Below the pieces are notes generated by a model. That model did not search any database, was not told where the DNA came from, and saw only the letters and a program-made list of their open reading frames with translations. The translations under genes and the position numbers were made by a program. 14,216 nucleotides of DNA, taken from Anaerolineales bacterium. Its GTDB lineage: Bacteria > Chloroflexota > Anaerolineae > Anaerolineales > VGOW01. The stretch covers positions 3,408 to 17,623 of the forward strand of contig CAKKQG010000040.1 in assembly GCA_919901875.1 (NCBI GenBank), in the 5' to 3' direction. Of the stretch, positions 1 through 13,168 are shown one piece after another (within the stretch, counting starts at the first letter, position 1; the number at the start of each line of letters is the position of its first letter).

Positions 1-578
1 TGGGTGTGCCGCTTTCACTCGCGGTTGTCATTTTATTTTGGGGTGGTCGCCGCGCGATGATCGGTTTGGCAGGGTTGGCGGCTGCGGGCGTGGTGGCGGC
101 GATCCCTTTGTCGCAAAGCCCGCGCTTCGCCGATACATTTAATTTCACCAGTGGCACGTCATTCTTCCGAATCCAATTATGGCGATCCGTCGTCTCAATG
201 ATCGCCGATCATCCGTGGCTCGGAGTTGGGCTGGATAATTTTCTGTATGCGTATCGCGGCAAATATATTTTGCCCGAAGCGTGGCAAGAACCGAATCTGG
301 CGCATGCCCATAACATTATTCTCGATTCGCTGGCGCGGCTCGGTGTGTTTGGTTTTGCGGCAACGTTCTGGATGTTGAGTGCATTTTTCTTAAATGCCTA
401 CACGACACTTAAACGACTCGCCGATCCCGACCTTCGCGCGCTCACCATCGGACTCATCGCCTCAATGATCAACTGTCTCGCCCACGGCATGGTAGACACC
501 GGTTATTGGTTTGTGGATTTGGCGTTTGTGTTTATGATGACGATGGGGGTAATGAAGAGGTTAGAGATTGGAGACTAG
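1..578 (+). CDS. O-antigen ligase/polymerase-like membrane protein, 3' part
   Basis: The reading frame is open from the left edge (first full codon at 3) to a TAG at 576-578, so the gene starts outside the window. The visible part, about 191 residues, is hydrophobic. It holds the Wzy_C/O-antigen ligase signature: a loop reading HPWLGVGLDNF, then a short soluble stretch and AHAHNIILDSLARLGVFGF, followed by two membrane segments. Members join or polymerise lipid-linked glycans on the outer face of the inner membrane. The same signature recurs in the protein encoded at 2806-4359, so two paralogues lie in one locus. The last residues (RLEIGD) and the stop are written by a 7-nt repeat array at 561-588, so the C-terminus may have been reset by repeat insertion. 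A polymerase (Wzy) and a ligase (WaaL) cannot be told apart from sequence. Confidence 0.82.
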   Translation, partial: GVPLSLAVVILFWGGRRAMIGLAGLAAAGVVAAIPLSQSPRFADTFNFTSGTSFFRIQLWRSVVSMIADHPWLGVGLDNFLYAYRGKYILPEAWQEPNLAHAHNIILDSLARLGVFGFAATFWMLSAFFLNAYTTLKRLADPDLRALTIGLIASMINCLAHGMVDTGYWFVDLAFVFMMTMGVMKRLEIGD

Positions 579-588
579 AGATTGGTAT
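561..588 (+). repeat. Heptad repeat array, 4 units
   Basis: Four consecutive 7-nt units TTAGAGA, TTGGAGA, CTAGAGA and TTGGTAT lie in strict register. The same unit type (GATTAGAGATTGGAG) recurs at 1692-1733 (opposite strand), 11908-11949 and 12865-12892. Here the array supplies the last codons and stop of the upstream gene and runs into the -10 box of the next promoter. Confidence 0.7.
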
Positions 589-591
589 AAT
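583..591 (+). promoter_or_regulatory. Extended -10 promoter of the toxin-antitoxin cassette
   Basis: TGGTATAAT is a perfect TATAAT (586-591) with a TGn extension. No good -35 at 17 nt is visible; the extended -10 can partly compensate. Transcription would begin near 598 and give a leader of about 36 nt before the DUF433 start. A GGAG ribosome-binding site sits at 622-625. Confidence 0.55.
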
Positions 592-633
592 CTAAACATC
601 AGCCAAGCGTGAAAGTGTCTCGGAGATAACAAG

Positions 634-942
634 ATGAAAAAAAACGGGAAGAAATCAATCACAAGAACATTGTCGAGAAGCTCGTCTCTATTGAAGAACC
701 GAGTTCCCCGTCCAAAACAAAAACAGGTATTGTTAGGACGCTACATTGTCGCCGACCCTGAGATTTGTCACGGCAAGCCAACTTTTCGTGGAACGCGAAT
801 CTTCGTTTCGGATGTTTTAGAAATGGTTGCCGAAGGGATGGCATGGGAGACAATTATTGAGCAGTGGCACGGCAGTGTCACAAAGGAAGCAATTGCCGAG
901 TCGGTAAAACTATCGGGTATGAATGAAAGAGGTGAAATATGA
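634..942 (+). CDS. DUF433 domain protein (VapB-like antitoxin family)
   Basis: This 102-residue protein carries a DUF433 core at about residues 36-95: YIVADPEICHGKPTFRGTRI followed by VSDVLEMVAEG and a helical end. DUF433 proteins are small winged-helix-like proteins usually found as antitoxins of PIN-like (often DUF5615) toxins. The start is supported by GGAG at 622-625, 8 nt upstream. The first 34 residues form a very basic extension (many Lys and Arg) before the core, longer than in the usual member of about 75 residues; it could bind DNA or RNA. The stop overlaps the next start (ATGA, 939-942), so translation is probably coupled. It could be the antitoxin or an extra regulator of the VapC pair just downstream. 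Confidence 0.8.
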   Translation: MKKNGKKSITRTLSRSSSLLKNRVPRPKQKQVLLGRYIVADPEICHGKPTFRGTRIFVSDVLEMVAEGMAWETIIEQWHGSVTKEAIAESVKLSGMNERGEI

Positions 943-1187
943 AAGTAACTATTTCAAAAGAAAAAATCTTCCAAGAGATTAAGTTAATCCCCGAAGAAAA
1001 ACTAGCAGATGTTTATGCGCTCCTGCATCATTTCCGTTTGAGTTTAAAAGCATCACAAACTAAACTAAGACCCGTCATGCACTATGCAGGAATTTGGCAA
1101 GATATGCCTGCCGATATTTTTGCAGAGTTCACCGTAGGCATCTCTGTGCGCCGGCAACAAGCATTTTCGGGAAGACGTGCCAGATGA
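939..1187 (+). CDS. Small antitoxin-like protein paired with VapC
   Basis: This 82-residue protein starts by ATGA overlap with the DUF433 gene and ends by ATGA overlap with the PIN toxin gene. An AGGTG site lies 4 nt upstream of the start. The first half is predicted helical (KEKIFQEIKLIPEEKLADVY). The second half, with GIWQDMPADIFAEF and the basic end RRQQAFSGRRAR, resembles the C-terminal toxin-binding tails of small antitoxins that precede VapC genes. No named DNA-binding fold can be assigned from sequence alone. Its position directly before the toxin and the double overlap make an antitoxin role the best inference. Confidence 0.72.
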   Translation: MKVTISKEKIFQEIKLIPEEKLADVYALLHHFRLSLKASQTKLRPVMHYAGIWQDMPADIFAEFTVGISVRRQQAFSGRRAR

Positions 1188-1594
1188 GACTTGCGCTAAT
1201 TGACACGGATATTCTATCGCTATTCTTTCGAGGCGATCCAAACGTTGTCACCCGTATTCAAGCCTACACCAGCGAACACGGGCAGATCAACTTCAGCATC
1301 ATCACCTATTACGAAATTCTGAGTGGGCTGAAACACCGTGACGCGCAAAAGCAACTAGACACTTTTCTGAGATTCGCTTCTGAGAATAATGTCATTCCCC
1401 TTACTGAACAGGCGGCGACACTGTCAGCCGAAATGTATGCTTCAACACGCGCGAGCGGCACGCCTGTTGCCGACATTGATATCTTGATTGCTGGCATTGC
1501 GAAGGCAAACAATTGGGTCTTGGTCACGCACAATACAAAACATTTTGAGAAGATCAAGGGACTGGATATCGAAGACTGGAGTGAAACGCAATAA
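1184..1594 (+). CDS. vapC: VapC-like PIN-domain ribonuclease toxin
   Basis: This 136-residue protein covers a whole PIN domain. Acidic residues that would bind Mg2+ are visible: D7 and D9 in LIDTDILS, E44 in YYEILSG, and D97 and D99 in PVADIDILIAG. The C-terminal THNTKHFEKIKGLDIEDW is typical of the family. VapC toxins are Mg2+-dependent endoribonucleases, many cutting tRNA or rRNA, and are held inactive by their antitoxin. The frame is open upstream to 1094, but the ATG at 1184 overlaps the antitoxin stop and the protein aligns from LALIDTD onward, so this start is chosen. A terminator follows within 15 nt, closing the three-gene cassette. Confidence 0.88.
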   Translation: MRLALIDTDILSLFFRGDPNVVTRIQAYTSEHGQINFSIITYYEILSGLKHRDAQKQLDTFLRFASENNVIPLTEQAATLSAEMYASTRASGTPVADIDILIAGIAKANNWVLVTHNTKHFEKIKGLDIEDWSETQ

Positions 1595-1608
1595 TTTCTT
1601 CAAACTCG

Positions 1609-1638
1609 AAAAGACCTTTTCTCGCAAAAGGTCTTTTT
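1609..1638 (+). terminator. Rho-independent terminator after vapC
   Basis: A perfect 12-bp inverted repeat (AAAAGACCTTTT, loop CTCGC, AAAAGGTCTTTT) is followed by further T. It begins 15 nt after the toxin stop codon. A-tracts on the left arm mean it could also work on the other strand. Confidence 0.85.
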
Positions 1639-1675
1639 GTTCATCCTTCATTGTTTCATTGTTCATTGCCCCGCG

Positions 1676-1684
1676 TGGTAAAAT
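1676..1684 (+). promoter_or_regulatory. Putative extended -10 promoter of the UXS gene
   Basis: TGGTAAAAT matches an extended -10 (TGn plus TAAAAT at 1679-1684) located between the vapC terminator and the epimerase gene. No clear -35 is seen. Transcription would start near 1691, so the leader would consist almost entirely of the heptad array at 1692-1733. Confidence 0.4.
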
Positions 1685-1691
1685 CCGCCCG

Positions 1692-1733
1692 CAATCTCCA
1701 ACCTCTAATCTCCAATTACTAATTACCAATTAC
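1692..1733 (+). repeat. Heptad repeat array, 6 units
   Basis: Six units in perfect 7-nt register: CAATCTC, CAACCTC, TAATCTC, CAATTAC, TAATTAC, CAATTAC. On the opposite strand 36 of 41 positions match 11908-11948, which lies inside the YqeC-MocA coding region. Just before it (1641-1668) is a looser array of TTCATTG-type units spaced 7-8 nt. The array ends next to the AAGGA ribosome-binding site (1734-1738) of the UXS gene. Confidence 0.8.
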
Positions 1734-1746
1734 AAGGAAACTCTCA

Positions 1747-2697
1747 ATGCGTATACTCATCACCGGCGGCGCGGGCTTTATCGGATCACACTTATGTGAT
1801 CGATTTCTCTCCGAAGGTCACAGCGTCACCGCCATTGATAATTTGATCACCGGCTCCACGCGCAACATTCAACATCTCGCCGGGCGCGACGATTTCACAT
1901 TCATAAAGCACAACGTCTCCGAATACATTTTTGTCGAAGGCAACGTAGATGCGGTGCTACACTTCGCCTCACCCGCCAGTCCGTCGCAGACCGCGCCCAC
2001 CGGTTATTTGCAATTACCGATTCAAACGTTGAAGGTCGGCGCACTCGGCACTCTTAATGCGTTAGGTGTGGCAAAAGCAAAGAACGCAAAGTTTATTCTC
2101 GCCTCAACGTCTGAAGTGTATGGCGATCCGTTGGAACATCCACAAAAAGAATCGTATTGGGGTCACGTTGACCCCATCGGTCCTCGCTCGGTTTATGATG
2201 AAGCCAAACGATTCGCCGAAGCGTTGACGATGGCCTATCACCGCACGCACAACGTTAACACTCGCATCGTCCGCATCTTCAACACCTACGGTCCACGAAT
2301 GCAGTTAGACGATGGTCGCGTCGTGCCAAATTTTGTCGGGCAGGCCTTGCGTCACGAGCCGCTCACAGTGTATGGCGACGGATCGCAGACGCGCAGTTTT
2401 TGCTTCGTAACTGATCTCGTTGACGGCATCGCCCGTTTACTCAACTCAGACGAACACGACCCGACCAACATCGGTAACCCCAACGAGATTTCGATTTTGG
2501 AATTCGCTAAAGCGATCAATCTCATCACTGATAATCCGGCGGGCATCAAGATCGTCGCCAGTGGACGCACACAAGGCGACCCGCAACAACGCAAGCCCGA
2601 CATCAGCAAAGCGAAGCGCGTGTTGAATTGGGAACCGAAAGTTAAACTCGACGACGGGTTGCAGAAGACGATTGAGTATTTTGCGAAGATGGTTTAA
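1747..2697 (+). CDS. UDP-glucuronate decarboxylase (UDP-xylose synthase)
   Basis: This 316-residue extended short-chain dehydrogenase has the NAD-binding GGAGFIG at 7-13, TSE at 121-123, and catalytic Y150 and K154 in the block [13 protein letters not shown]. The string [21 protein letters not shown] and then [13 protein letters not shown] is characteristic of UDP-glucuronate decarboxylases rather than UDP-glucose 4-epimerases or dTDP-glucose dehydratases. The enzyme oxidises UDP-glucuronate at C4 with NAD+, decarboxylates it and reduces the intermediate to UDP-xylose, in the cytoplasm. Length is typical of the soluble bacterial form with no membrane anchor. AAGGA lies 8 nt upstream of the ATG. 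It would supply UDP-xylose for the surrounding glycan genes. Confidence 0.88.
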
Positions 2698-2706
2698 AGA
2701 CTCGTC

Positions 2707-2786
2707 GTCATTGCGAGGAGCGTCTTTTGCGACGAAGCAATCTCAATGCGAGACCAAGATTGCTTCGCAAAGAACGCTCGCAATGA
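2707..2786. repeat. REP-like intergenic hairpin
   Basis: An imperfect inverted repeat: the left arm starts GTCATTGCGAGGAGCG and ends GAAGCAATCT; the right arm starts AGATTGCTTCGC and ends CGCTCGCAATGAC. I recognise the GTCATTGCGAGGAGC...GAAGCAATCT motif as a repeat type common in many bacterial genomes. The loop contains an ATG (2746) in frame with the downstream gene. Confidence 0.8.
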
Positions 2787-2805
2787 CGGTGCCATTTCTT
2801 TTCTG

Positions 2806-4359
2806 ATGCTCGCCCTCAAATTCCCTCGTAACGACTCGTTCTTTCCTTTATATACGCTCACGTTGATCGCCATCGCCCTCAGCCTGGTGATTGCGGTGAT
2901 GCCGCCGATGGTTGCGGTAGCGGCAATCTTAATTGTGGCGTGGTGTGCGTTGGCGGTAACCGAGCCGTTGTTCGCATTGGCATTTGCGATCATTCTCGGA
3001 CCCACCAAAGCGTTGTATGCCGCCGCGTTGCCAAACGAATGGATCGATCTGGGGCAAATAGGGTTTGTGCTGATCGTCGTCTCGTGGTTGCTGCGCGGGT
3101 TGGCGAAGCGAGAAATAAGAATCCCGCCGATAACGATCTTGATTCCGTTTGCGATCTATTTGTTAGCGATCACGCTATCGTTCACCGTCAACCAAGTGCG
3201 CGCGCCCAACGCCGCCTTGAACGAATGGTTGAAATGGATCGAGATGTTGATCACGGCGATCATTGTCGTGGATTGGGCAAAACCTACACCTGACAGGTCT
3301 GTTGTCAACCCGGCGGGTGTTAAGTTCGGCAAGACCTGTCAGGTGTTGTCGAAACCCGGTTGGCTCGTTGCCATCATCATCGCCAGCGGAGTGTTGCAAA
3401 CGATGAGCGGCGTGTGGGAGTGGGGCTTTCGCGGAATCGGACCCGCCACATTTAGAATCTTCGGGGACACCTATCGCGCTTACGGCACATTCGAACAACC
3501 GAATCCCTTCGCCGGATATTTGGGAATGATATGGACGGTGGCGATTGCGGTGGGGGTTGGGGTTGGAATAATCGTAGGGGCAGGGCTTGCCCCTGCCCAA
3601 AGGGCGACCGCAAGAGTCGCCCCTACAAATGTTTGGGTAGGGTTGATCGCCTTCGCAGGTGGGGCGGCGTCACTCGCCGGTTTGTATTTGTCATTCTCAC
3701 GCGGGGCGTGGATCGGGGCGGCAGCCGCCGGAATCGTCATGCTTATCTTCGTGCCACGCCGACGCTGGATCGGAATCAGTTTGGCAATCATTGGCGTGAT
3801 CATTTTCTTCACACTGTACTCACTTAATCTTCTGCCATCGGCAATTGCCTCACGCTTCGCCGACGTCGGAAGTTTTTTTCAGGTGTACGATGTGCGCGGT
3901 GTTCACGTCAACGATTCAAATTTTGCTATTGTGGAACGGTTGGCACATTGGCAAGCGGCGGTGAACATGGCAGACGCGAATCCGATCTTCGGCGTGGGGC
4001 TAGGAAATTATGAGGCGGCTTACGAAACGTATCGCTTGGTGAAGTGGCAATATGCGTTGGGTCACGCCCACAACGTTTATTTGAACACGCTCGCCGAGAC
4101 GGGCGCGCTGGGGTTGGCAGGATATTTGATCTTGTGGGGATCGATCTTTGCGGTTACGATTCGAGTCATTCATCGCGCGGGCGGCGTTGAGCGCGCGTTG
4201 GCGATTGGGTTATTGGGAACGTGGACACATTTAATGACGCACCAGTTTTTAGACAACTTGTATGTGAACAACGTGCATCTGCTTATTGGAGCGCTGTTAG
4301 GGTTGCTGTGTCTTCTCCTGAATTCTATCGCCGAGAGGCAGAGCGCGCAGAATTTTTAA
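2806..4359 (+). CDS. O-antigen ligase/polymerase-like membrane protein
   Basis: From the ATG at 2806 the protein has 517 residues with about ten or more hydrophobic segments. The Wzy_C signature lies near the C-terminus: residues 392-403 (NPIFGVGLGNYE) and GHAHNVYLNTLAETGALGLAGY at 419-440. A short motif YGTFEQPNPFAGYLG (226-240) is also typical of the family. It would polymerise or ligate lipid-linked glycan on the periplasmic or outer face. The frame is open to an earlier ATG at 2746, but that codon lies in the loop of a REP-like hairpin and the extra 20 residues look repeat-encoded, so 2806 is preferred although it lacks a clear ribosome-binding site. Two palindromic repeats sit in frame inside the gene (3286-3346 and 3574-3626), both in predicted loops between membrane segments. 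Confidence 0.83.
   Translation: MLALKFPRNDSFFPLYTLTLIAIALSLVIAVMPPMVAVAAILIVAWCALAVTEPLFALAFAIILGPTKALYAAALPNEWIDLGQIGFVLIVVSWLLRGLAKREIRIPPITILIPFAIYLLAITLSFTVNQVRAPNAALNEWLKWIEMLITAIIVVDWAKPTPDRSVVNPAGVKFGKTCQVLSKPGWLVAIIIASGVLQTMSGVWEWGFRGIGPATFRIFGDTYRAYGTFEQPNPFAGYLGMIWTVAIAVGVGVGIIVGAGLAPAQRATARVAPTNVWVGLIAFAGGAASLAGLYLSFSRGAWIGAAAAGIVMLIFVPRRRWIGISLAIIGVIIFFTLYSLNLLPSAIASRFADVGSFFQVYDVRGVHVNDSNFAIVERLAHWQAAVNMADANPIFGVGLGNYEAAYETYRLVKWQYALGHAHNVYLNTLAETGALGLAGYLILWGSIFAVTIRVIHRAGGVERALAIGLLGTWTHLMTHQFLDNLYVNNVHLLIGALLGLLCLLLNSIAERQSAQNF
3286..3346. repeat. In-frame 15-bp palindrome inside the ligase gene
   Basis: Arms ACACCTGACAGGTCT (3286-3300) and AGACCTGTCAGGTGT (3332-3346) are perfect inverted repeats. 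They encode a hydrophilic loop (residues about 161-181) between two membrane segments. The 13-bp core ACCTGACAGGTCT recurs at 8727-8762 in another gene. Confidence 0.8.
3574..3626. repeat. In-frame composite palindrome (two nested hairpins)
   Basis: Outer arms GTAGGGGC (3574-3581) and GCCCCTAC (3619-3626) enclose two small hairpins, GGGCAGGG/CCCTGCCC and GGGCGAC/GTCGCCC. The stretch encodes GAGLAPAQRATARVAPT (residues 258-274), which interrupts two membrane segments. The motif resembles a GC-rich repeat that I recognise from other bacterial genomes. Confidence 0.75.
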
Positions 4360-4364
4360 TTGTT

Positions 4365-4468
4365 CTGGACTTACGCACTTTAATCACGAATGTCACGAAT
4401 ATACGAATTTAACGAATAGAGCAATTAAAAAACATTCGTGATATTCGCTCATTCGAGTCATTCGTGAT
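4365..4468. repeat. Intergenic inverted repeat built of ACGAAT/ATTCGT units
   Basis: This fills the gap between the ligase and GtrA genes. ATCACGAATG (4383-4392) pairs with CATTCGTGAT (4459-4468), and between them ACGAAT then ATTCG recur every 8-9 nt, so the region can fold into a long imperfect hairpin. The first 28 nt (4365-4392) recur exactly, inverted, at 7204-7231. It could act as a terminator or processing site between the two genes; no T-run follows. Confidence 0.75.
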
Positions 4469-4479
4469 GGAATCATCTT

Positions 4480-5007
4480 ATGCAAGCCATTTCTGAATTG
4501 CGGGCATCCATGCCCAAAGACATCAAACGGTTTATCAAATTTCTAATTGTGGGCGCGAGCAGTTTCTTAGTAGACTTCGGTCTCTTCAATTATTTTCACG
4601 CGCAAGGTGTGGGAACGTGGGTCGCGCAGAATCTCTTCTCATCGTTTTCGAGCGTCGCCCTGTTTTTCGCCGAGCGCCCCGAAGTGGTAGAGCAATCATT
4701 GTCGTTTTCGGTTGCCGTCGTGAACAGCTTCTTTTGGAATTATTCTTGGATCTACCGCGAAGCAAAGAACGAACCGGTAGGCAAGAAGTTGGCGCAGTTC
4801 GTCATCGTCAGCGGCGTCGGGTTGTTGCTTGGCGCGCCGATCTTCAGCGGGGCGTTGATGATCACTCGCCCAATGGTCACTACCATTGGCTTGAGCCATC
4901 CAAGTTTCAACGTGGCGGGCAACTTGGCGTTGATGGTGCGCGTCGGCGTGATCTTGTTCTGGAATTTTTACGCCAATCGCAAATGGACGTACGGGCATGT
5001 CGAATGA
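4480..5007 (+). CDS. GtrA-like membrane protein
   Basis: This 175-residue protein has the GtrA layout of four membrane helices at about 18-38, 72-92, 104-126 and 147-166. Family landmarks are FIKFLIVGASSFLVDFGLFN at the first helix, NSFFWNYSWIYRE after the second, and FWNFYANRKWTY at the end. GtrA proteins are thought to flip polyprenyl-phosphate-linked sugars across the cytoplasmic membrane for cell-surface glycan work. The stop overlaps the start of the glycosyltransferase (ATGA, 5004-5007), so the two are probably co-translated and may act as a flippase-transferase pair. Residues 41-70 between helices 1 and 2 are longer than I expect for the family. Confidence 0.85.
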   Translation: MQAISELRASMPKDIKRFIKFLIVGASSFLVDFGLFNYFHAQGVGTWVAQNLFSSFSSVALFFAERPEVVEQSLSFSVAVVNSFFWNYSWIYREAKNEPVGKKLAQFVIVSGVGLLLGAPIFSGALMITRPMVTTIGLSHPSFNVAGNLALMVRVGVILFWNFYANRKWTYGHVE

Positions 5008-6106: not shown

Positions 6107-6472
6107 ATGCAAATCATTCCTATCTTCACCACACGCGGCGAACATGCCGCGTTCTACAGCAACGGTTATATTTTTAATTCGGGTGGGGAGTGGATCGGAT
6201 TCGTGGACACGCGCAACGGTTATGTGTATGCGCTAGATGGCGAGTACGTCGGATACTTTGCGAAGGATGGGCGAATTTTGCGAAAGCGCTCGATGGAAGA
6301 GATGCCCAAGCGCACGCCGCCAGCCGCTCCCAAACGACTCGCGCTGCCGACCAGTGTGCCGCTCCCGCCGCTGATAGGCGATCTCGGTTTCGACACGATT
6401 GATGTGTTGGAAGAAATGCCCGAACGATTGCACACACTCGATTCGGGCGACTTGAAACAGGATATGGATTAG
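6107..6472 (+). CDS. Small beta-repeat protein of unknown function
   Basis: This 121-residue protein begins MQIIPIFTTRGEHAAF. The first 60 residues contain a repeated unit: GYIFNSGGEWIGFV (20-33) and GYVYALDGEYVGYF (38-51), then DGRILRKR. Such alternating aromatic/Gly units suggest a small beta fold; they resemble what I recall as the four-fold beta-flower family, but I cannot confirm this. The second half is Pro-rich with an acidic end. The open frame extends upstream to 6044 inside the glycosyltransferase gene; ATG 6107 follows that gene and a TATAAT box, so it is preferred. No ribosome-binding site precedes it, which fits a leaderless message. Confidence 0.6.
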   Translation: MQIIPIFTTRGEHAAFYSNGYIFNSGGEWIGFVDTRNGYVYALDGEYVGYFAKDGRILRKRSMEEMPKRTPPAAPKRLALPTSVPLPPLIGDLGFDTIDVLEEMPERLHTLDSGDLKQDMD

Positions 6473-6475
6473 AAA

Positions 6476-6550
6476 TTTTTGATTTTCGATTGCGGATTGC
6501 TGAGTTTTAGCGCGTCCGCAATCCGCAATCAGAAATCTGAAATCAAAAAT
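6476..6550. repeat. Ten-unit heptad array forming a hairpin
   Basis: From 6481 ten 7-nt units run in perfect register: three of GATTNNN type, a middle, then CCGCAAT, CCGCAAT, CAGAAAT, CTGAAAT, CAAAAAT. The two halves are reverse complements, so TTTTTGATTT...GATTGCGGATTGC pairs with GCAATCCGCAATC...AAATCAAAAA. It fills the whole gap between two genes and reaches the A and T of the thioesterase start codon. Confidence 0.82.
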
Positions 6551-7034
6551 GACAGGAAAATCTCCTAAACAAACACGCCTCACGATCAGCCAACTGATGT
6601 TGCCCGAACACGCCAACGGTCACGGCAACGTGCATGGCGGATGGATCATGAAACTGGTAGATGAAGCGGGCGGGCTGTGTGCGATGCGCTATGCGCACCG
6701 TCCGTGCGTAACTGTGGCGATTGATTCGATGACATTTGAAGAACCGGTGCATGTGAGTGAGTTGATGGAGCTTACCGCCGAAATTACATGGACGGGTCGC
6801 ACAACAGTTGAAGTGGAAGTGAAGGTGGTCGCCGAGAATCCCATGAGTGGCGATCGGGTAGCGACAAACTCTGCTTATTTAGTCTACGTCGCACTCGACG
6901 AGCGTGGCCGCCCGGCGCCTGTGCCGCCGATACAACCTGAGACCGACGAAGACAAAGCGCGTTACGCTGCCGGACAGAAGCGACAGGATTATCGGATTCG
7001 ACAACGAGAGCTGGCGAAGCAAGCAAAGCAATGA
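6549..7034 (+). CDS. Hotdog-fold acyl-CoA thioesterase
   Basis: This 161-residue protein is a single hotdog domain of the cytosolic acyl-CoA hydrolase (YciA/BFIT) type. The helix signature is LPEHANGHGNVHGGWIMKLVDEAGG (18-42), with the likely catalytic or binding Asn and Asp (N27, D38). VTVAIDSMTFEEPVHVSELMEL and then TSMTVEVEV-like strands follow (here GRTTVEVEVKV). It hydrolyses acyl-CoA to free acid and CoA in the cytoplasm; chain length cannot be read. The last 30 residues are a charged Arg/Gln/Lys tail. The start codon touches the end of the upstream hairpin and has no visible ribosome-binding site, but residues from about 10 on match the family, so an internal start would truncate the domain. 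Confidence 0.87.
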   Translation: MTGKSPKQTRLTISQLMLPEHANGHGNVHGGWIMKLVDEAGGLCAMRYAHRPCVTVAIDSMTFEEPVHVSELMELTAEITWTGRTTVEVEVKVVAENPMSGDRVATNSAYLVYVALDERGRPAPVPPIQPETDEDKARYAAGQKRQDYRIRQRELAKQAKQ

Positions 7035-7100
7035 AGAATGAACAATGAGACAATGAACAAAAATCAAATCCCAAATTCCAAAATCCCAACAACCAATGCC
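7031..7100 (+). repeat. Heptad repeats in the 7035-7279 intergenic region
   Basis: ATGAA-type units at 7031, 7038, 7045 and 7053 match the opposite strand of 1641-1668 (for example GAACAATGARACAATGAA). They are followed in 7-nt register by AAATCCC, AAATTCC, AAAATCC, CAACAAC, CAATGCC (7066-7100). Beyond them ATGGTTGGGAT (7110-7120) can pair with ATCCCAAC at 7083-7090. The thioesterase stop lies inside the first units. Confidence 0.65.
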
Positions 7101-7178: not shown

Positions 7179-7231
7179 ATTCGTGTTATTCGTTTATTCG
7201 AGTCATTCGTGATTAAAGTGCGTAAGTCCAG
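7179..7231 (-). repeat. Second copy of the 4365-type repeat, inverted
   Basis: The 28 nt at 7204-7231 (CATTCGTGATTAAAGTGCG...AGTCCAG) are the exact reverse complement of 4365-4392. The preceding ATTCGTG, ATTCG, ATTCGAG units match 4434-4458. Only one arm of the hairpin seen at 4365-4468 is present here. Confidence 0.8.
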
Positions 7232-7279: not shown

Positions 7280-8440
7280 ATGCCCACCGTTTCATCCTTA
7301 ATGCAATTGATCGATCAAGCATCGGCAAAATCTGTGCTGGATGTGAAGCTCGACGAAGATCGCGGGCTTGCCGAACCACTGCCCTACCCCTTCATGGCAG
7401 TCGTGGGTCAGGCAGAGATGAAGACCGCCTTGTTGTTGACGATGATCAATCCGGCAGTGAGCGGCGTATTACTCATCGGTCCGCGTGGCACGGGCAAAAC
7501 AACGGCAGTGAGATCGATCAGCGATCTCCTGCCTTCGGTGCCGCGATCACTGTGCCAGTATGGGTGCTTGCCCGAAGACATTGAGACCGATGGAATCGAT
7601 TCGGTCTGCCCCGACTGCGCTAAGAAATATGGTCAAGGCGAATCACTAACGCGCACGGATCGCGTTCACTTAATTGAACTGCCACTCAACGCGAAAATTG
7701 ATGACGTGGTCGGCGGTGTGAACGAGCGCGCGGCGATTCAGAATCGCGTTTTGTTGGAGCGTGGTATTCTGGCACGCGCCGATCGTAACTTGCTTTATGT
7801 GGATGAAGTGAATTTGCTAACCGATGCTATTGTGGATGCGATCTTAGACGCGGCGGCGCAAGGGCAGTACACGGTGAGGCGCGGCGCGCTGGCGGCCACG
7901 TTCCGCTCACGTTTCGCCTTGATCGGTTCGATGAATCCCGAAGAAGGACGTTTGCGCCCGCAGATTTTGGATCGCTTTGGATTGCGAGTAATCGTCAAAG
8001 GGTTGAGCGATCCTCAAGAACGGCTCGACGCTTATAAGCGAGTGAGGATGTATCTCAACAACCCGCGCGCGGCGATTGCCGATTATGCCGAGCAAACGAT
8101 AGCGGCGCGTGACGAGATTCAAACAGCGCGCAATAATTTACCCAACGTCAAACTGACACCCGAAGCCGAACAAGCCGGGTTACAGATCACACAACGGATG
8201 AAGATCGATTCGCTTCGCGCCGAGATCACGTTGTTCGAAGCGGCGCGAGCCTACGCGGCAGCCGACAGCCGCGTTGAAGCAACAGTGGACGATGTACGCG
8301 CTGTGGCGCCGATGGCGCTGCGCTTGCGGCGATCGCAGTTCATCGAAAAATTTTTTAGAGCACGAAAGGGTGAGGAAGATGAGATCGAGTCGGTGCTTGA
8401 GGCGGTGAAGAGGAAACAAGGGAGACAGGGAAAGAGGTAG
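7280..8440 (+). CDS. bchI: Magnesium chelatase subunit I-type AAA+ ATPase
   Basis: This 386-residue protein matches BchI/ChlI along its length. Walker A is GPRGTGKT (67-74), Walker B is LLYVDEVNLL (171-180), sensor 1 is in GSMNPEEGRLRP (216-227), the RPQILDRFG region carries the arginine finger, and the C-terminal helical domain has IDSLRAEI (309-316). BchI rings work with a BchD (VWA) partner and a BchH subunit to insert Mg2+ into protoporphyrin IX. No such partner and no other tetrapyrrole gene is in the window, so a different chelatase or a chaperone-like role is possible. Four cysteines, C92, C96, C110 and C113, lie in the insertion after Walker A and could bind a metal. The last residues (KQGRQGKR) run into a repeat. 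Confidence 0.85.
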   Translation: MPTVSSLMQLIDQASAKSVLDVKLDEDRGLAEPLPYPFMAVVGQAEMKTALLLTMINPAVSGVLLIGPRGTGKTTAVRSISDLLPSVPRSLCQYGCLPEDIETDGIDSVCPDCAKKYGQGESLTRTDRVHLIELPLNAKIDDVVGGVNERAAIQNRVLLERGILARADRNLLYVDEVNLLTDAIVDAILDAAAQGQYTVRRGALAATFRSRFALIGSMNPEEGRLRPQILDRFGLRVIVKGLSDPQERLDAYKRVRMYLNNPRAAIADYAEQTIAARDEIQTARNNLPNVKLTPEAEQAGLQITQRMKIDSLRAEITLFEAARAYAAADSRVEATVDDVRAVAPMALRLRRSQFIEKFFRARKGEEDEIESVLEAVKRKQGRQGKR

Positions 8441-8503
8441 ACAAGTAAAGAGGTAAACAGGCACGCAGAGTTCTACCTGTTTACTTTGTATACGTGTATA
8501 CGT
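8437..8503. repeat. Octad repeat array with a 9-bp hairpin
   Basis: GTAGACAA, GTAAAGAG, GTAAACAG run at 8-nt spacing. GTAAACAGG (8453-8461) pairs perfectly with CCTGTTTAC (8476-8484), and GTATACGT is then tandemly duplicated (8488-8503). The hairpin sits just after the ATPase stop and may weakly terminate; only a short T-run follows. The TTG start of the next gene falls inside the array. Confidence 0.6.
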
Positions 8504-9136
8504 TTACGTATTGTGTTCCGCATTGTTGCTTATCTCGCCCTCACCCTTGCGTGGTTCGGCTATTTCTCTCCGTGGATTATGCCCGCGCCGGTTGCGCTGA
8601 GACTCACGGGGTACGATCTGGTCGAGTGGTTAAGTTTCGCGCAAGGCGTAAGAGATGGAACGTTTGCGGTGACGCGGGTGGATATGGTGTTGCCGTTGAT
8701 GATGATTGCGCTGCTCTTCGTAACACAAGACCTGACAGGTCTTAAGAGACCTGTCAGGTCTTTATTGATCGGCTTGGCACTGATCAATGCCTTCCTCGTT
8801 CTTCCTTCCTATCCATTTATTCTCACCGCACACGCCGATCCCGAATTGCGACCACAATTGATCGCGGGCGTGATCACTTTTGTTGGGGTCGCGTTGATGG
8901 TTGCGCTCTCGATCAAACGCCCAACGTGGGCGGAGCGAATCGGCGGCGTCATTGCGGCTGGAGGGATCGTCTTCACGATTCGGGCTTACGCGCTGGCGAG
9001 TCCGGTGATCGCCGACCTCTTGACTCGATCTACGCCCATCGGATATGGAATCATTTTAACGGTGATCGGATTTGCGTCGTACACTTTGTTAATCGCGGCG
9101 CAGCTCTATGGTAGAATGCGCGAAACGCGGGTGTAG
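8486..9136 (+). CDS. Six-helix membrane protein, function unknown
   Basis: I do not recognise this protein of up to 216 residues. Six hydrophobic segments are visible at about 10-31, 66-80, 92-111, 123-142, 151-172 and 183-205, joined by short loops, so it is very probably an inner-membrane protein. The start is uncertain. TTG 8486 lies in a repeat and its first nine residues look repeat-encoded; GTG 8513 just before the first helix is an alternative. Neither has a good ribosome-binding site. A perfect 16-bp palindrome (8727-8762) lies in frame and encodes the loop QDLTGLKRPVRSL between helices 2 and 3. The last ten nucleotides, including the TAG stop, are the first ten of the tRNA-Gly gene. 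Confidence 0.68.
   Translation: MYTCIRLRIVFRIVAYLALTLAWFGYFSPWIMPAPVALRLTGYDLVEWLSFAQGVRDGTFAVTRVDMVLPLMMIALLFVTQDLTGLKRPVRSLLIGLALINAFLVLPSYPFILTAHADPELRPQLIAGVITFVGVALMVALSIKRPTWAERIGGVIAAGGIVFTIRAYALASPVIADLLTRSTPIGYGIILTVIGFASYTLLIAAQLYGRMRETRV
8727..8762. repeat. In-frame 16-bp perfect palindrome
   Basis: AAGACCTGACAGGTCT (8727-8742) and AGACCTGTCAGGTCTT (8747-8762) are exact reverse complements around the 4-nt loop TAAG. It shares the 13-bp core with the arms at 3286-3346. It lies within the membrane-protein gene without breaking the frame. Confidence 0.85.
9109..9117 (+). promoter_or_regulatory. Extended -10 promoter of tRNA-Gly
   Basis: TGGTAGAAT (TAGAAT at 9112-9117 with TGn) lies 9 nt before the tRNA, inside the 3' end of the membrane-protein gene. 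A TTGTTA at 9086-9091 is 20 nt away, a long spacer. Transcription would begin near 9124. Confidence 0.5.
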
Positions 9137-9198
9137 TTCAGTGGTAGAACGCTTGCTTCCCAAGCAAGATATCGTGGGTTCGAGTCCCATCACCCGCT
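9127..9198 (+). tRNA. tRNA-Gly, anticodon CCC
   Basis: A full 72-nt cloverleaf is visible. The acceptor stem GCGGGTG pairs with CACCCGC (9191-9197) and the discriminator is T. The D arm is GTTC...GAAC. The anticodon stem CTTGC/GCAAG encloses the loop TTCCCAA, giving anticodon CCC, which reads GGG (Gly). The variable loop is 5 nt, and the T arm GTGGG/CCCAT carries TTCGAGT. CCA is not encoded (TCA follows), so it is added after transcription. The first ten nucleotides overlap the end of the membrane-protein gene, whose TAG stop is nucleotides 8-10 of the tRNA. Confidence 0.96.
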
Positions 9199-9214
9199 CA
9201 AGCAGACAACTATC

Positions 9215-9255
9215 AGACCGACACGGTTTCGCAAAGCGAACCGTGTCGGTCTTTT
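9215..9255 (+). terminator. Strong hairpin terminator after tRNA-Gly
   Basis: AGACCGACACGGTTTCGC (9215-9232) pairs with GCGAACCGTGTCGGTCT (9236-9252) around an AAA loop, with one bulged T, and TTT follows. It lies 17 nt after the tRNA. The right end touches the stop codon of the convergent HD gene, so it may serve both strands, though the T-run is better for the + strand. Confidence 0.85.
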
Positions 9256-9892
9256 AAACCCCAAACGTATTCTCGACCACCTTCGGCAACACTTGGTAAA
9301 TCGATCTACCGATCTTCTCCGAAAAATATGTTTGCAGTTCAAGATACTTCTGCCACTTCGGCGTGATGTGTTCGCTCACGCCATATCGCAGCGCCACATC
9401 AATAAAACGTTTCTCCATCAAGCAAAAGCCGGAAGGCAGAGAAAGCGCGTCGCACAGTTGCAGCAAGCGATCATAATCATCGTATTCGATGCCCGCCAGA
9501 TATTCATCCACGAACTTTAATTCATCTGCCGAGCAATCCCACGCGCCGAAGATCATCTGAGTATCTTTAATCGGAAACGAGTGCGTCAGCGAAATGCGCG
9601 CCGCACCTTCGTAACCTTCCTCATGTAAAAAATTGTAGCCGTCAATCACATGGCGCATGCTGGTCGCCCCGCACCGCCGCCCGATGTCGTGTAAGAGTCC
9701 AAGAATGTAAGCAGCATCGGGATCAAGATCGGCATGATACGTTGCGATCAACTTTGCCCCTTCGGCGACGTAGAGTGAATGTGAATACCAAGGACCCGGG
9801 TTGAGTTGATTGGCATCGTCGAGGTAGGCGCGGGCTTGGGTTAAGTTGGGAATGTTCAAAGTTATACGATCACCATATCCTTTGCGGCGCAT
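9254..9892 (-). CDS. HD-domain metal-dependent phosphohydrolase-like protein
   Basis: From the ATG at 9892 the protein has 212 residues. The HD signature is visible: H38 in PWYSHSLYVAEGAKLIA, H68-D69 in AAYILGLLHDIGRR, and D148 in LLQLCDALSLPSGFC. HD proteins bind one or two metal ions and hydrolyse phosphomonoesters or phosphodiesters, often of nucleotides; the substrate here cannot be read. The open frame runs to 9952, overlapping the upstream Hint gene by 43 nt; ATG 9892 lies beyond that gene's stop and before the first conserved residues, so it is preferred. TAAAAT on the - strand (9904-9909) lies 11 nt before the ATG and could be its own -10, although it also follows the upstream gene by only 17 nt. 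Confidence 0.8.
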   Translation of the reverse strand: MRRKGYGDRITLNIPNLTQARAYLDDANQLNPGPWYSHSLYVAEGAKLIATYHADLDPDAAYILGLLHDIGRRCGATSMRHVIDGYNFLHEEGYEGAARISLTHSFPIKDTQMIFGAWDCSADELKFVDEYLAGIEYDDYDRLLQLCDALSLPSGFCLMEKRFIDVALRYGVSEHITPKWQKYLELQTYFSEKIGRSIYQVLPKVVENTFGV

Positions 9893-9909
9893 AGGTCGGT
9901 TACATTTTA

Positions 9910-10917
9910 CTATTGATCCAGCGTGCTTCTGAGCAAAATTCCGTTTGCCCAATACAAACCTGTTTCACCGGAAGGCAAAATATCAAACGTATCTTCGCCG
10001 CGATACAAAATTTTTTCGGCGAATGCCACTGACGATCCATTCAACGCATCGCCGACTCGCAAATTGCCAACCACTCGTCCGTCTGCCGTCGGATGCGGCG
10101 CAGAAACAAATATCGCGCGCCCATCGGCAAGCACCAAATGCACGATCTCAAAGTCGGCAGGCACGGGTCGGCTGATCGTCCGAGTCACCACTGCCGCGCT
10201 GCGCGCGCCCGACGAGTCTAAAGTCCAGATCGGCATCCCGATCTTTAATTCTTGCACACGGATCGATCCGAGCGGCGTGTCTATCATCGTGTTCACCGCG
10301 AGACAAATGGGGCAAGTGAGAAATGCGGTTTGACGCTTAGTAACAGTGATTGTGCCGTTGCCATCCACCGCGCCTTCAATCGCCAAACCGCTACCCTTGC
10401 TCTCAGTGCCCGTGCGCAAACTAAATCTATATTGATTACCCGATGGCTCTAACAAGATCGAATTAAGTTTCTTCGACTCGTTGTAAACGATCTGCTTTTG
10501 ACTCTGGGTAAACGACACCATGCCCGATAAGTTTTTGTTCCTCGCAATCGCCTCAAACAATTCGGGGTTCTTACGAATCGCCTCAAAGCGTTGATCCAAT
10601 TCCTGATCAGTCACTTCGCGCCCCACCGGATAAAAATCTGGATCGCAAAAAAATGGTTCGCCAAATTGGGCAATAAGGCGATACTTGATCTCGGTTGGCG
10701 AAAATTTTGAAGAGGGTATTGGCGCCATGGTCGGCGTCACCGCTCGCGTAGGAGTGTCAAGCGGCGCAATCGTAATCAACGGCGTCGCAAACGGAACAGA
10801 GGTCACCACCGGAAGAACCGTCCCCACCTGCGCCGTTGCCGCAGTGGCTTCATCCGGGATCGCCGTGAGTGGCGCGCACGACGTACACAGCAACACAATT
10901 AACAATAGTTTTTTCAT
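9910..10917 (-). CDS. Lipoprotein with C-terminal Hint (intein-like) domain
   Basis: This 335-residue protein starts with a lipoprotein signal (KKLLLIVLLCTSC, likely lipidated Cys14) and a Thr/Pro/Ala-rich linker to about residue 70. A middle region of unknown fold (72-200) follows. The last 130 residues form a Hint domain: the nucleophile-like C205 in CPICLAVNTMIDTPLGSIRV, then H275 in SAPHPTADGR and the end YWANGILLRST. Hint domains can cleave or splice their own backbone (inteins, hedgehog, bacterial BIL domains). A good AGGAG site is 8 nt upstream of the ATG, and the ATG overlaps the MocA stop (ATGA), so it is coupled to a cytoplasmic cofactor gene although it is itself exported. It ends 17 nt before the HD gene start. 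Confidence 0.78.
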   Translation of the reverse strand: MKKLLLIVLLCTSCAPLTAIPDEATAATAQVGTVLPVVTSVPFATPLITIAPLDTPTRAVTPTMAPIPSSKFSPTEIKYRLIAQFGEPFFCDPDFYPVGREVTDQELDQRFEAIRKNPELFEAIARNKNLSGMVSFTQSQKQIVYNESKKLNSILLEPSGNQYRFSLRTGTESKGSGLAIEGAVDGNGTITVTKRQTAFLTCPICLAVNTMIDTPLGSIRVQELKIGMPIWTLDSSGARSAAVVTRTISRPVPADFEIVHLVLADGRAIFVSAPHPTADGRVVGNLRVGDALNGSSVAFAEKILYRGEDTFDILPSGETGLYWANGILLRSTLDQ

Positions 10918-12230
10918 AACGCGCTCTCCTGCAAAGTACGATATTCATCGGGCGTATCGGCTTCGCCCAAAATCGAATCGTCCCAATCCACATAAACGAT
11001 CTCATGACGATCAAAAATTGCTCGCCCGCCCGTGTCTCCCGTGAGTTGATTTAGATCGTGCCACACACTGCGATCAAACAAAACGGGGTTCGCCCGTTTG
11101 CCGTTGACGCGCGCGCAAACAATGGGCGCAAGAGTCTCGCGCCATTTTTGGATCAGTGCGTTGATAATATGCGGTGTGATGTTCGGCTGATCAGTTAATA
11201 AGAAGACAATCGCCTCAGAATTAGTTGACGCCGCCACCGCCGCTTTGACCGATTCACTTTGTCCAGCCTGATACCGCGCATTGAACACGGTGCGCGCGCG
11301 AGGCGGTATCACCTGCTTCACCTTTTCGGCTTCCGCGCCGACGATCACCATCACCTCACCTGCCTCTGATTCCAACGCCACATCCACAATGTGACCCAAC
11401 ATCGTTTTATCTTTCCACTTCAACAACTGTTTTGGCGAACCCATCCGTTTTGATTCGCCTGCGGCGAGAACGGCGCAGGTAACACGCGACCAAACTTCGC
11501 GGATGGGATCATTTTGATTCGCCGCTCCGATCAAAACCCTAAGGGTCTTAAAGACCCTTAGGGTTTGGTCTGCGATCTCGCGCGCCGCTCTCAACCGATC
11601 ATCGTTCTCTACTTTATTAATCAACACGCTCACTCGCGCATTCGATGGAACATTTTTAAATCCGCCTTGAGGATGCATTAAAACTTTAGCTATCAATTCA
11701 GGGTTAATTATCGTGCCTACACGAGTCTCCGCGAGACGCGCAACGATCTCTGGACGATGCACGTATTCACCTGTTAACGGTTTGCCGATCACATCAATGC
11801 CTACAATGTTGACAACGTGCGTGACAAAATCTGGAATCACCGGCTCGTGTTCGGCGGGGGCTTTGAATGGGAGTTGTTTAGAACCATCGGCTTCTATTAG
11901 TAAATAGTAATTGGTAATTAGGGGTTGGAGATTAGAGATTAGAGATTGAGAAACGCCGAGAACTTTTCGCTCAACATAATTAATCTCGCCAGTGAGTAGA
12001 ACATGCGGCGAAGTTTGCAAAGCAATTTGCAACTCTTCAAAAGTGGTAACGTGAACAGGGGCAAGGGAGAGTTGATCGAGACCGAGTCGCGTGGTAGTCG
12101 TAGTGATCACCCGCCCACCCGACTCAACAATTTCACCCGCAAGTCGGAACATCGCTGCCGTTTTTCCTCCTGCCCCAATGAAGGCAACGACATCGTGATT
12201 CGTGAGGCGTAGTGCGCGAGAAAAGTTCAT
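10914..12230 (-). CDS. YqeC-MocA fusion: selenium-dependent hydroxylase accessory protein / Mo cofactor cytidylyltransferase
   Basis: From ATG 12230 the protein has 438 residues and two domains. Residues 1-245 are YqeC-like: P-loop FIGAGGKTAAMF (17-28), TTTTTRL (43-49) and the signature IEADGSKQLPFKAPAEHEP (112-130). Residues 250-438 are a MobA-like nucleotidyltransferase of MocA type: LAAGESKRMGSPKQLLKW (255-272), TDQP (346-349), GDTGGR (398-403) and DTPDEY (425-430). MocA transfers CMP to molybdopterin to make the MCD cofactor of xanthine dehydrogenase-type hydroxylases. YqeC is linked to maturation of selenium-dependent members. The frame is open to 12299, but the extra residues are repeat-encoded. 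Two repeats lie in frame inside (11535-11567 and 11908-11949). The start is 129 nt from the YqeB stop. Confidence 0.88.
   Translation of the reverse strand: MNFSRALRLTNHDVVAFIGAGGKTAAMFRLAGEIVESGGRVITTTTTRLGLDQLSLAPVHVTTFEELQIALQTSPHVLLTGEINYVERKVLGVSQSLISNLQPLITNYYLLIEADGSKQLPFKAPAEHEPVIPDFVTHVVNIVGIDVIGKPLTGEYVHRPEIVARLAETRVGTIINPELIAKVLMHPQGGFKNVPSNARVSVLINKVENDDRLRAAREIADQTLRVFKTLRVLIGAANQNDPIREVWSRVTCAVLAAGESKRMGSPKQLLKWKDKTMLGHIVDVALESEAGEVMVIVGAEAEKVKQVIPPRARTVFNARYQAGQSESVKAAVAASTNSEAIVFLLTDQPNITPHIINALIQKWRETLAPIVCARVNGKRANPVLFDRSVWHDLNQLTGDTGGRAIFDRHEIVYVDWDDSILGEADTPDEYRTLQESAL
11535..11567. repeat. In-frame 16-bp perfect palindrome
   Basis: AAACCCTAAGGGTCTT (11535-11550) and AAGACCCTTAGGGTTT (11552-11567) are exact reverse complements around a single A. 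It encodes TLRVFKTLRVL at the junction of the YqeC and MocA domains without breaking the frame, as a protein with an internal repeat TLRV. Confidence 0.85.
11908..11949 (+). repeat. Heptad array inside the YqeC coding region
   Basis: Six units in register on the + strand: TAATTGG, TAATTAG, GGGTTGG, AGATTAG, AGATTAG, AGATTGA. On the - strand it encodes SQSLISNLQPLITNYYLL, just before the conserved EADGSK block. It matches the opposite strand of the intergenic array at 1692-1732 at 36 of 41 positions. Confidence 0.8.
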
Positions 12231-12231
12231 G

Positions 12232-12378
12232 GCATATCGCGTATGGCGTATAGCGAATGGCAAATGGCGTACAGCGAATGGCGCATGGCTATTCGCCATC
12301 GGCTATCAGCCATCTGCCATCAGCCATCTGCCATCCGCCATCTGCCATCCGCCATTTGCTATCTGCTATTCGCCATCC
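12232..12378. repeat. 21-unit heptad array with central strand switch
   Basis: A continuous 7-nt register runs from 12232 to 12378. The left units are GCGTATG, GCGTATA, GCGAATG, GCAAATG, GCGTACA, GCGAATG, GCGCATG; from about 12288 the units become GCTATTC, GCCATCG, GCTATCA and then mostly GCCATCT or GCCATCC. The two halves are reverse complements, so the array can fold back. It fills the YqeB-YqeC spacer and supplies the last residues and stop of YqeB. Confidence 0.85.
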
Positions 12379-13168
12379 ACGACAACACTGCTTCTACCAC
12401 GCCGCCGCCAACGGCTAACGACTTGTCGGAGATAGTAAAGCAGTAACGCGGATCGCAACGCGGATCGAGATCGCCAATTTTTTCATTGGCATTAACAGAA
12501 ATGCCATCGTGAATCAAACCGCGCAATGCGCCATCGAAGGGCGCGATTATTTTCTGCCCATCTACTGTGGCGATCACGTCGCCTTTGCGAATCAGATCGC
12601 CAATTTCTTTTTGGGCGCACAACGCACCCGCGCCGGGCGCGCGCAAAACACGATCACCTTCAAAGCCCATCACCGATTCGGGTTTGCCCGTATCCGCTTG
12701 TGCCGCGCCTTTCCATATCACACGCCCCAGATCGTGACCGCGATTCGTTTCAATAATTGCGTGGCAATGAACCCCCGCCACAAATCCGGGACCCAAGCCA
12801 ACAACAAACTGCGCCGAATCAATTTTTGTATCGAGCGGCTGCTTGCACATTCGGGCATCAATTAAGATTGAGGGTTGGAGGGTAGAGATTGAATCGCCGT
12901 CGGGATCGATCAAGACAGGAATATCGCCGCCGCGCGCGAGGACGGCAGCCCCGAAGAAATCGTAGCGGATCGCCTGAAGTCCATCAATCGAAATCCCTCC
13001 GTCATAGATCGCTTGGGCCACCGAGACCATGCGCCGCACCACACGCGGTTGATCGAGTTCGAGAACGATGACGGGAAAACCGGCATGATGCAAACGGTGA
13101 ACAACGCCGGTGGCAAGATCGCCGCCACCGCGCACGAGGCACAATGTGTTGTGAAAGAGAAGAGGCAT
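12359..13168 (-). CDS. yqeB: YqeB / EF2563-family selenium-dependent molybdenum hydroxylase system protein
   Basis: This 269-residue protein matches the EF2563/YqeB family: LVRGGGDLATGVVHRLHHAG (11-30), LELDQPRVVRRMVSVAQAIYDG (36-57), VGLGPGFVAGVHCHAIIETNRGHDLGRVIWKG (123-154) and a C-terminal biotinyl/lipoyl-like fold around DLIRKGDVIATVDGQKIIAPFDGALRGLI. Genes of this family accompany YqeC and MocA and are tied to maturation of selenium-dependent molybdenum hydroxylases; the exact reaction is not known to me. It begins 1 nt after the GDSL stop, with no ribosome-binding site, so it is probably translated after re-initiation. The last residues (SWMANSR) and the stop are written by the heptad array 12232-12378. 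A four-unit heptad array also lies inside (12865-12892). Confidence 0.87.
   Translation of the reverse strand: MPLLFHNTLCLVRGGGDLATGVVHRLHHAGFPVIVLELDQPRVVRRMVSVAQAIYDGGISIDGLQAIRYDFFGAAVLARGGDIPVLIDPDGDSISTLQPSILIDARMCKQPLDTKIDSAQFVVGLGPGFVAGVHCHAIIETNRGHDLGRVIWKGAAQADTGKPESVMGFEGDRVLRAPGAGALCAQKEIGDLIRKGDVIATVDGQKIIAPFDGALRGLIHDGISVNANEKIGDLDPRCDPRYCFTISDKSLAVGGGVVEAVLSWMANSR
12865..12892 (+). repeat. Heptad array inside the YqeB coding region
   Basis: Four units in register: AGATTGA, GGGTTGG, AGGGTAG, AGATTGA, of the same type as 11908-11949. On the - strand it encodes SISTLQPSIL, similar to SNLQPLI encoded by the array in the YqeC gene. Confidence 0.6.

Follow-up and report, generated by a model that had tools for sequence, protein, structure and literature searches.

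We analysed a 14,216-nucleotide stretch of DNA (the window) that is part of contig C40 (CAKKQG010000040.1, positions 3,408 to 17,623) in the draft genome of an Anaerolineales bacterium of the Chloroflexota (GCA_919901875.1). This genome, G000, comprises 2.63 Mb in 484 contigs and is 64% complete. The gene content of the window is ordinary, with O-antigen ligases, DUF433 and PIN proteins, a sugar epimerase, GtrA, a glycosyltransferase, a thioesterase, a magnesium-chelatase-like ATPase, YqeC fused to a MobA-like domain, and a GDSL lipase. Between and within these genes lie degenerate tandem arrays with a period of seven bases, the subject of this study. For comparison we sampled four genus-mates, G001, G002, G003 and G004. 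The closest of them, G003 (480 contigs, 76% complete), includes a contig letter-identical to JACRLA010000152.1 from a groundwater Chloroflexi metagenome-assembled genome. A first-pass annotation of the window had listed seven period-7 loci. Comparing the best lag-7 score of each with 200 third-order shuffles of the window placed five above chance and one at the margin, and removed the seventh; N was never counted as a match in lag counts.

The longest array is a fold-back of GGCNNAT units at 12229-12376 (strand unassigned), listed initially as 12232-12378, with a score of 65 that no shuffle reached (0/200). It lies between two minus-strand genes, with a stop codon at 12359-12361 and the likely next start at 12228-12230. 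The ATG listed at 12299 for open reading frame (ORF) 10914-12299 falls within this repeat. Translation probably starts instead at the ATG at 12228-12230, on the repeat edge, and automated gene calls may thus read the array as protein. Within the coding sequence of the same ORF, a minus-strand array occupies a linker of YqeC at 11898-11947 (listed as 11908-11949; score 23, 0/200). A further fold-back, at 6475-6550 (strand unassigned; listed as 6481-6550, score 19, 0/200), fills the spacer between a stop codon at 6470-6472 and the ATG at 6549. A direct array at 7030-7096 (strand unassigned), in which AATGAAC units give way to CAAATCC, overlaps the stop codon that closes thioesterase ORF 6549-7034; the array scores 20 with these limits, and 15 as first listed (7066-7100; reached by 1/200 shuffles). 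On the minus strand, the array at 1692-1733 (score 19, 0/200) drifts from AATCTCC to AATTACY in plus-strand letters and ends 13 nt short of the epimerase start codon, the ATG at 1747.

The marginal locus is a short plus-strand GAGATTR array at 561-588, which overlaps the stop codon (576-578) of an O-antigen ligase ORF; its score of 11, taken alone, was reached by 15 of the 200 shuffles. This array and the one at 1692-1733 carry GAGATTR in opposite orientation and flank the DUF433 and PIN cassette. The same two flanking genes stand only ~110 bp apart in G001, and the window cassette (561-1733) was possibly inserted into an array. The locus that we did not accept, 12865-12892 (strand unassigned), lies within the coding sequence of ORF 12359-13168. 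Its lag-7 score of 5 was reached in all 200 shuffles, and the G003 coding segment at this site is equally long.

The period recurs across the genome. Forty G000 contigs chosen by contig number (C41-C80; 180,970 readable bases) contained 44 lag-7 arrays against a shuffle mean of 0.33, and lag 7 was the commonest at all thresholds from 12 to 30. Lags 4-6, 10, 11 and 13 yielded no arrays in this unselected sample, lag 14 yielded 27 and lag 21 yielded 10. Lag 8 gave 7 arrays and lag 9 gave 9, so the period dominates but calling it strict, as had been done, was slightly too strong. By scaling up, the whole genome would hold roughly 600 arrays. All four genus-mates carried them: 23 in 327,316 bases of G001 stretches, also chosen by contig number (lag 8 was high here too, at 16); 29 in 179,559 bases of G003; 15 in 79,055 bases of G002; and 15 in 88,491 bases of G004. 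The last three figures come from partly selected stretches, G003 contigs having mostly been picked for matching the window or its repeats and those of G002 and G004 partly for matching the window. A genome-wide lag-7 excess over shuffles that extends to related genomes, which the first-pass annotation had put forward as the test of its proposal, is thus borne out.

Arrays also occur in other Chloroflexota. One protein search supplied 80 relatives, labelled Chloroflexi, Chloroflexota, Anaerolineae, Anaerolineales or a genus within. At 79 loci around an ATPase gene in these genomes (the G003 duplicate L100 being excluded) we counted 26 lag-7 arrays in 1.21 Mb, distributed over 17 loci, and lag 7 was the most frequent among lags 4-30. 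We found none in the stretches of G005 (81,595 bases) and G026 (18,482 bases), but both were picked for having zero GAGATTR matches and so do not represent the order without bias. This pattern matched 16 of 41 genomes of the order, most often G000 and G003. Whole-genome counts in G000, at up to three mismatches, were 112 + 122 with overlaps included, and 75 + 68 for the pattern read backwards, so they are not numbers of separate arrays.

Some lag-8 and lag-9 arrays are families of their own. Degenerate period-8 families occur in the same genome at L031:676-723, L208:2651-2708 and L218:5895-5946 (GTAAACAG, TAGTCGAG), and a degenerate period-9 family (CCTTTATTT-like) at L031:3593-3652, L033:468-498 and L201:13004-13034. 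In the window, 4383-4468 and 7179-7231 are fold-backs of a ATTCGTGAT-like 9-base unit, with the same architecture at period 9, and at least ten similar places exist in G003.

The units themselves are diverse and locally related. Among 381 units in the G000 sample there were 141 distinct words, the commonest units being AATCTCC, AATACGC, AACAATG and AAGGATG, and 12 words occurred at least twice in each of G000, G003 and G001. Single arrays mix related words, often shifting gradually along their length. Across 136 runs (1,149 units), identity between units at separations of one to six was 0.747, 0.700, 0.624, 0.583, 0.547 and 0.539, whereas permuted unit order gave a flat profile near 0.60-0.62. 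Restricting the comparison to near-consensus units in 129 arrays gave 0.765, 0.746, 0.682, 0.661, 0.636 and 0.644, with permuted values of about 0.69. Identical units were slightly commoner two apart (124 of 877) than adjacent (117 of 1,013), with 54 of 741 at three apart, so 14-base steps matter too. The pattern looks as though each unit had been templated by one lying one or two positions off.

We then compared the same sites in G000 and G003 over 48,130 aligned columns. Sixteen sites were available and one, L201:4739, was masked, leaving 15. Most words were common to both genomes at four (L201:763, L201:16108, L016:1499 and window 7029), and some were common at three (L025:394, L025:1499 and window 12229). 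At five sites, both genomes carried arrays with no or almost no words in common (L201:1536, L201:12744, L038:9002, L025:834 and L016:1265, where the G000 array is weak, with a score of 9). At the other three (L201:14525, L016:656 and window 11898), an array in one genome stood opposite a palindromic sequence in the other. Two sites are outside the 15: L038:7750, a weak coding site at a lower threshold, and L038:2702, where the aligned G003 sequence is unlike. Of five orthology searches, two yielded little: hits of L033 in G003 were confined to short, repeat-like pieces, and no long match to L195 turned up in G000.

Several of these comparisons bear on how words change. At L201:1536, L201:12744 and L038:9002, word sharing was 0.02, 0.00 and 0.00, yet the reworded arms still pair in both species (inverted-repeat scores 17/16, 16/16 and 17/12). 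At L025:1499, an identical two-base difference between the species recurs, in register, across four successive units. For the window site at 7030-7096, G003 words are mostly alike (share 0.66). At 12229-12376, the G003 array is shorter, has mostly other words (share 0.27) and has lost its pairing (RNA folding z +1.2 against single-base shuffles). In G001, a fold-back of other words (TTGGAAG/CTTCCAA) lies between the two genes that flank 6475-6550; G004 has no array at this site, and the G003 contig begins beyond it. The initial observation of a constant period with varying units therefore extends even to some orthologous sites in different species. Relatives also differ in array length, as had been anticipated, at several orthologous sites and at the distance of species, not strains.

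The YqeC linker offers a comparison within coding sequence. Ahead of a conserved EADGS motif, the linker is built of AATCTCT/AATTACY heptamers in G000, CCCAAAT in G001 and TTCTGCA in G004, with a palindrome in G003 and nothing comparable in G002, all in frame. The lag-7 scores of 23, 18 and 16 in G000, G001 and G004 were reached by 24, 7 and 29, respectively, of 5,000 random same-length stretches from their own genomes. Elsewhere in the YqeC-MobA coding sequence, 11534-11566 is a palindrome (AAACCCTAAGGGTCTT/AAGACCCTTAGGGTTT) whose loop is 30 bases longer in G003, a multiple of three.

Many arrays are folded back on themselves. Strong inverted repeats (score at least 12) were present in 82 of 204 array regions versus 11 of 204 length-matched controls when four groups were summed; by group, the counts were 22/48, 31/90, 19/31 and 10/35, with 5, 6, 0 and 0 in controls. 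Loops in 59 selected fold-backs measured 2-21 nt in 50 cases and 29-65 nt in nine, after the selection had discarded arms shorter than 21 nt, inverted-repeat scores below 10, arm lag-7 identities below 0.55, any N and duplicate starts. RNA folding of eight G000 sequences, most of them picked for fold-back, gave z-scores of -3.2 to -7.9 against dinucleotide shuffles for seven; the sole sequence without better-than-shuffle folding was window 1685-1745. Fold-back had been claimed for several arrays in the window. It is present at 6475-6550 (z -4.8) and at 12237-12382 (z -6.7), where arms 12237-12289 and 12330-12382 are 77% complementary, but not at 1692-1733 (z +0.9).

Arrays concentrate in spacers between genes that point the same way. 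With ORFs of at least 90 aa called by a simple greedy procedure, and gaps below 10 bp, above 600 bp or containing N discarded, 604 spacers of 10-600 bp held 107 arrays scoring at least 14. Ninety were co-directional, 8 convergent and 9 divergent, corresponding to 1.78, 0.66 and 0.53 per kb (binomial p ~3e-6 for the co-directional preference against base share). G000 arrays lay a median of 4 nt from the neighbouring stop codon (24/38 within 20 nt) and 9 nt before the start codon (28/36 within 30 nt). This concentration may reflect tolerance, a transcription-linked origin or use as RNA hairpins, among which these data do not separate.

We favour, with a probability of about 60%, the reading that these are degenerate heptamer microsatellites, relatives of short tandemly repeated repetitive sequences (STRRs) and long simple sequence repeats (LSSRs), that are made and remade in place by slippage and whose arms are partly homogenised. 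Arrays would grow when imperfect copies slip against each other during replication, by 7 or 14 bases at a time. The similarity gradient, the 7- or 14-base step, the in-register change at L025:1499 and the different heptamers of one coding linker all argue for growth in place from local copies, and it is the gradient that the slippage half of the original proposal, a copying enzyme or slippage process with a 7-nt step, fits. Snap-back template switching of the nascent strand could write an inverted arm and later homogenise both arms, which would let a new word spread through the pair; such an event is suggested by inverted arms that have short loops and change their word in concert. Arrays would persist in sequence under little constraint, at places where transcribing a hairpin is harmless, chiefly inside operons. 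That the period, and sometimes the hairpin, is kept at the same junctions while the word changes makes errors of local copying a likelier source than a mobile element or any fixed signal.

Several points weigh against this reading. Slippage is deduced from comparisons within arrays and between species, and at sites with unrelated words new arrays may have been inserted independently. Slippage by itself would not favour a step of 7 over one of 5, 6 or 8. Adjacency is partly built into the gradient test: arrays that were permuted, embedded and re-detected also gave 0.742 at separation one. These re-detected arrays (~75 of 136 recovered) level off at 0.68 and real ones drop to 0.54, so the fall at long separation is real and the height at separation one is partly a selection effect. 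Unit-by-unit mirroring between arms is weak (mean score 16.2 versus 14.8 for permuted units), in a test that already leans toward the real order, the arms having been selected as complementary. Finally, 69 of 226 arrays (score at least 12) lie at least 80% within called ORFs, some of which are perhaps chance or over-called.

The other half of the original proposal, a dedicated copying enzyme or a linked reverse transcriptase or transposase, found no support in searches that did not include polymerase genes. Twelve of 41 genomes had a reverse transcriptase (PF00078); none was found in G000 (64% complete) or G003 (76% complete). Y1 transposase (PF01797) was uninformative, being present in 33 of 41, including genomes without GAGATTR matches. 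We also considered and set aside loss of the hairpin nuclease SbcD: TIGR00619 hits came from 37 of 41 genomes, 35 of them over the cut-off; G001, G002 and G004 had one, G000 had a partial match under the cut-off, and none was found in G003 (76% complete). Loss of MutS was not decisive. PF00488 matched in 40 of 41 genomes and was not found in G000 (64% complete); strong matches (E near 1e-84) occurred in G001 and G004 and were not found in G000, G002, G003, G022 or G037, of which G022 and G037 also lack GAGATTR matches. None of these four patterns explains the arrays. As for spread by phages, 13 IMG/VR contigs match one word pattern and several carry more heptamer arrays, too few for an argument. 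Three IMG/VR contigs, L292, L294 and L303, classed there as viral, hold several arrays apiece; those of L292 are degenerate and those of L303 almost perfect.

A bolder reading addresses the step itself. A replication or repair polymerase might write without regard to sequence, in 7-base steps set by its grip on the slipped primer end, and so overwrite unconstrained transcribed spacers, and even coding linkers, with arrays of heptamers and with hairpins. On this reading, which we hold to be unlikely, the inherited property of a site would be its period, and often its fold, rather than its word, and the arrays would be a footprint of enzyme geometry. The 7-base step can be tested in vitro with purified polymerases.

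An unlikely alternative is that the arrays are selected RNA structures, interchangeable stem-loops in operons that stabilise the upstream message or set downstream translation, with nothing but pairing and position conserved. Their co-directional density (1.78 per kb versus 0.66 convergent and 0.53 divergent), proximity to stop codons in G000 (median 4 nt) and strong folding in seven of eight G000 sequences, mostly fold-back picks, are what such a role would produce. So is the survival of pairing through word change at three sites, and a single-locus precedent is known from the P6b stem of the Nostoc tRNA-Leu intron (PMC4476775). Selection for structure accords poorly, however, with the 122 of 204 regions that have no strong inverted repeat, the unfolded sequence at 1685-1745, the unpaired G003 copy of 12229-12376 (z +1.2) and the arrays in coding sequence.

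We give still less credence to small mobile palindromic elements, similar to REPINs (paired repetitive extragenic palindromic, or REP, sequences) or miniature inverted-repeat transposable elements (MITEs) and moved by transposases of the Y1 or REP-associated tyrosine transposase (RAYT) type, that alternate at tolerant operon spacers. Word families are dispersed across the genome, and at three of the 15 orthologous sites a non-heptamer palindrome (inverted-repeat scores 10, 17 and 15) stands opposite an array. The G003 copy of L038:9002 has a palindrome nested in its loop, and ordinary dispersed palindromes exist in the same genomes. One of these is the element at 2706-2789 (TCGTCATTGCGAGGAGCG...), with many close copies in G003 and G000 and six places in the 181-kb G000 sample. 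The arrays, in contrast, lack the constant sequence and defined ends of a REP/REPIN or MITE: units drift along each array, the G000 sample holds 141 distinct words, and one coding linker carries three different heptamer words in frame. Y1 transposases, for their part, occur in 33 of 41 genomes, including G005 and G012, which have no GAGATTR matches.

It is very improbable that a sequence-specific regulator binds these words, a role that has been put forward for TAACTGA in Beggiatoaceae. Arrays do often lie just before start codons (median 9 nt in G000, 28/36 within 30 nt) and some words recur (AATCTCC, AATACGC, AAGGATG), but 141 words among 381 units and the absence of word conservation at five of 15 orthologous sites with arrays on both sides already weaken the case. 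An artefact of short-read metagenome assembly is hardly credible: the window genome and its nearest relative are fragmented drafts (484 and 480 contigs), but separately catalogued genomes have arrays at the same sites, with mostly matching words at four of 15, and the compared arrays stand within contigs aligned at 83-91% overall identity, L201:16108 being near-identical in both.

A preference for seven bases and its attribution to slippage are already published; what is new here is the Chloroflexota host group, the many words and the turnover of words at some fixed sites. Why heptamers prevail among bacterial simple repeats is apparently unsettled. Orthologous sites that change word and keep the period, together with the three-species linker, separate the process that makes arrays from selection on their sequence. 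They also caution against reading such words as regulatory signals or mobile elements. Our search found no open-access paper on heptanucleotide repeats in Chloroflexi and, among the open-access titles listed, none on degenerate period-7 arrays in Chloroflexota; most subscription literature lay beyond its reach.

The nearest relatives of these arrays are the LSSRs and the STRRs of cyanobacteria. Like these repeats, the Chloroflexota arrays favour period 7 over other periods, lend themselves to slippage and comprise head-to-tail 7-nt copies beyond chance (44 versus 0.33). Their copies are not near-perfect, as adjacent units are 75% identical and 117 of 1,013 adjacent pairs are exact matches, and we therefore class them as a degenerate relative of LSSRs and STRRs. 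The counts of long simple repeats by Mrazek and colleagues reportedly concern mainly near-perfect repeats. The Chloroflexota arrays differ in being degenerate and in often folding back, and here they are set against each other site by site across species. The first-pass annotation knew of no mechanism, but one was available: as recounted in PMC4679880, Mrazek et al. (2007) found that heptanucleotides outnumber every other class of long simple repeat in most genomes, and suggested that 7 nt might be the length in contact with the polymerase, which would favour slippage.

Other known heptamers share position or structure with these arrays. PMC4679880 describes TAACTGA direct repeats in marine Beggiatoaceae, Cyanobacteria and Bacteroidetes, likewise arrayed in spacers near start codons. 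Those are repeats of a single exact word, with sequence neighbours rare and one indirect repeat only; the Chloroflexota arrays mix related words and commonly fold back. In Xanthomonas and Nostoc, GGGNATC and GGGGAYT heptamers occur genome-wide and are over-represented in non-coding regions, according to PMC4692102. They resemble the Chloroflexota arrays in lying preferentially between aligned ORFs and near stop codons, and in forming inverted pairs (70 cases in Xanthomonas campestris pv. campestris, Xcc), but represent a single G-rich word type tied to quadruplexes. Chloroflexota words are many, change at some same sites and, in their common forms, have no G tracts. Quadruplex heptamers carry at least three consecutive G in each unit, whereas among the Chloroflexota units a few are G-rich (for example, at L205:4032).

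The closest parallel for the change of words is the Nostoc tRNA-Leu intron, where a heptamer hairpin at one locus, P6b, has had its word replaced repeatedly. According to PMC4476775, degenerate 7-nt repeats form the stem there, the word class is replaced with the structure remaining similar, and lengths change by 7 or 14 nt, all within one group I intron locus and two word classes. The Chloroflexota arrays instead occupy spacers and some coding linkers genome-wide, in many word families, and many have no second arm. For the arms, quasipalindrome template switching is reported to homogenise inverted repeats in yeast (PMC8604942); that work concerns short inverted repeats, and the corresponding process in Chloroflexota would act on arms built of heptamers.

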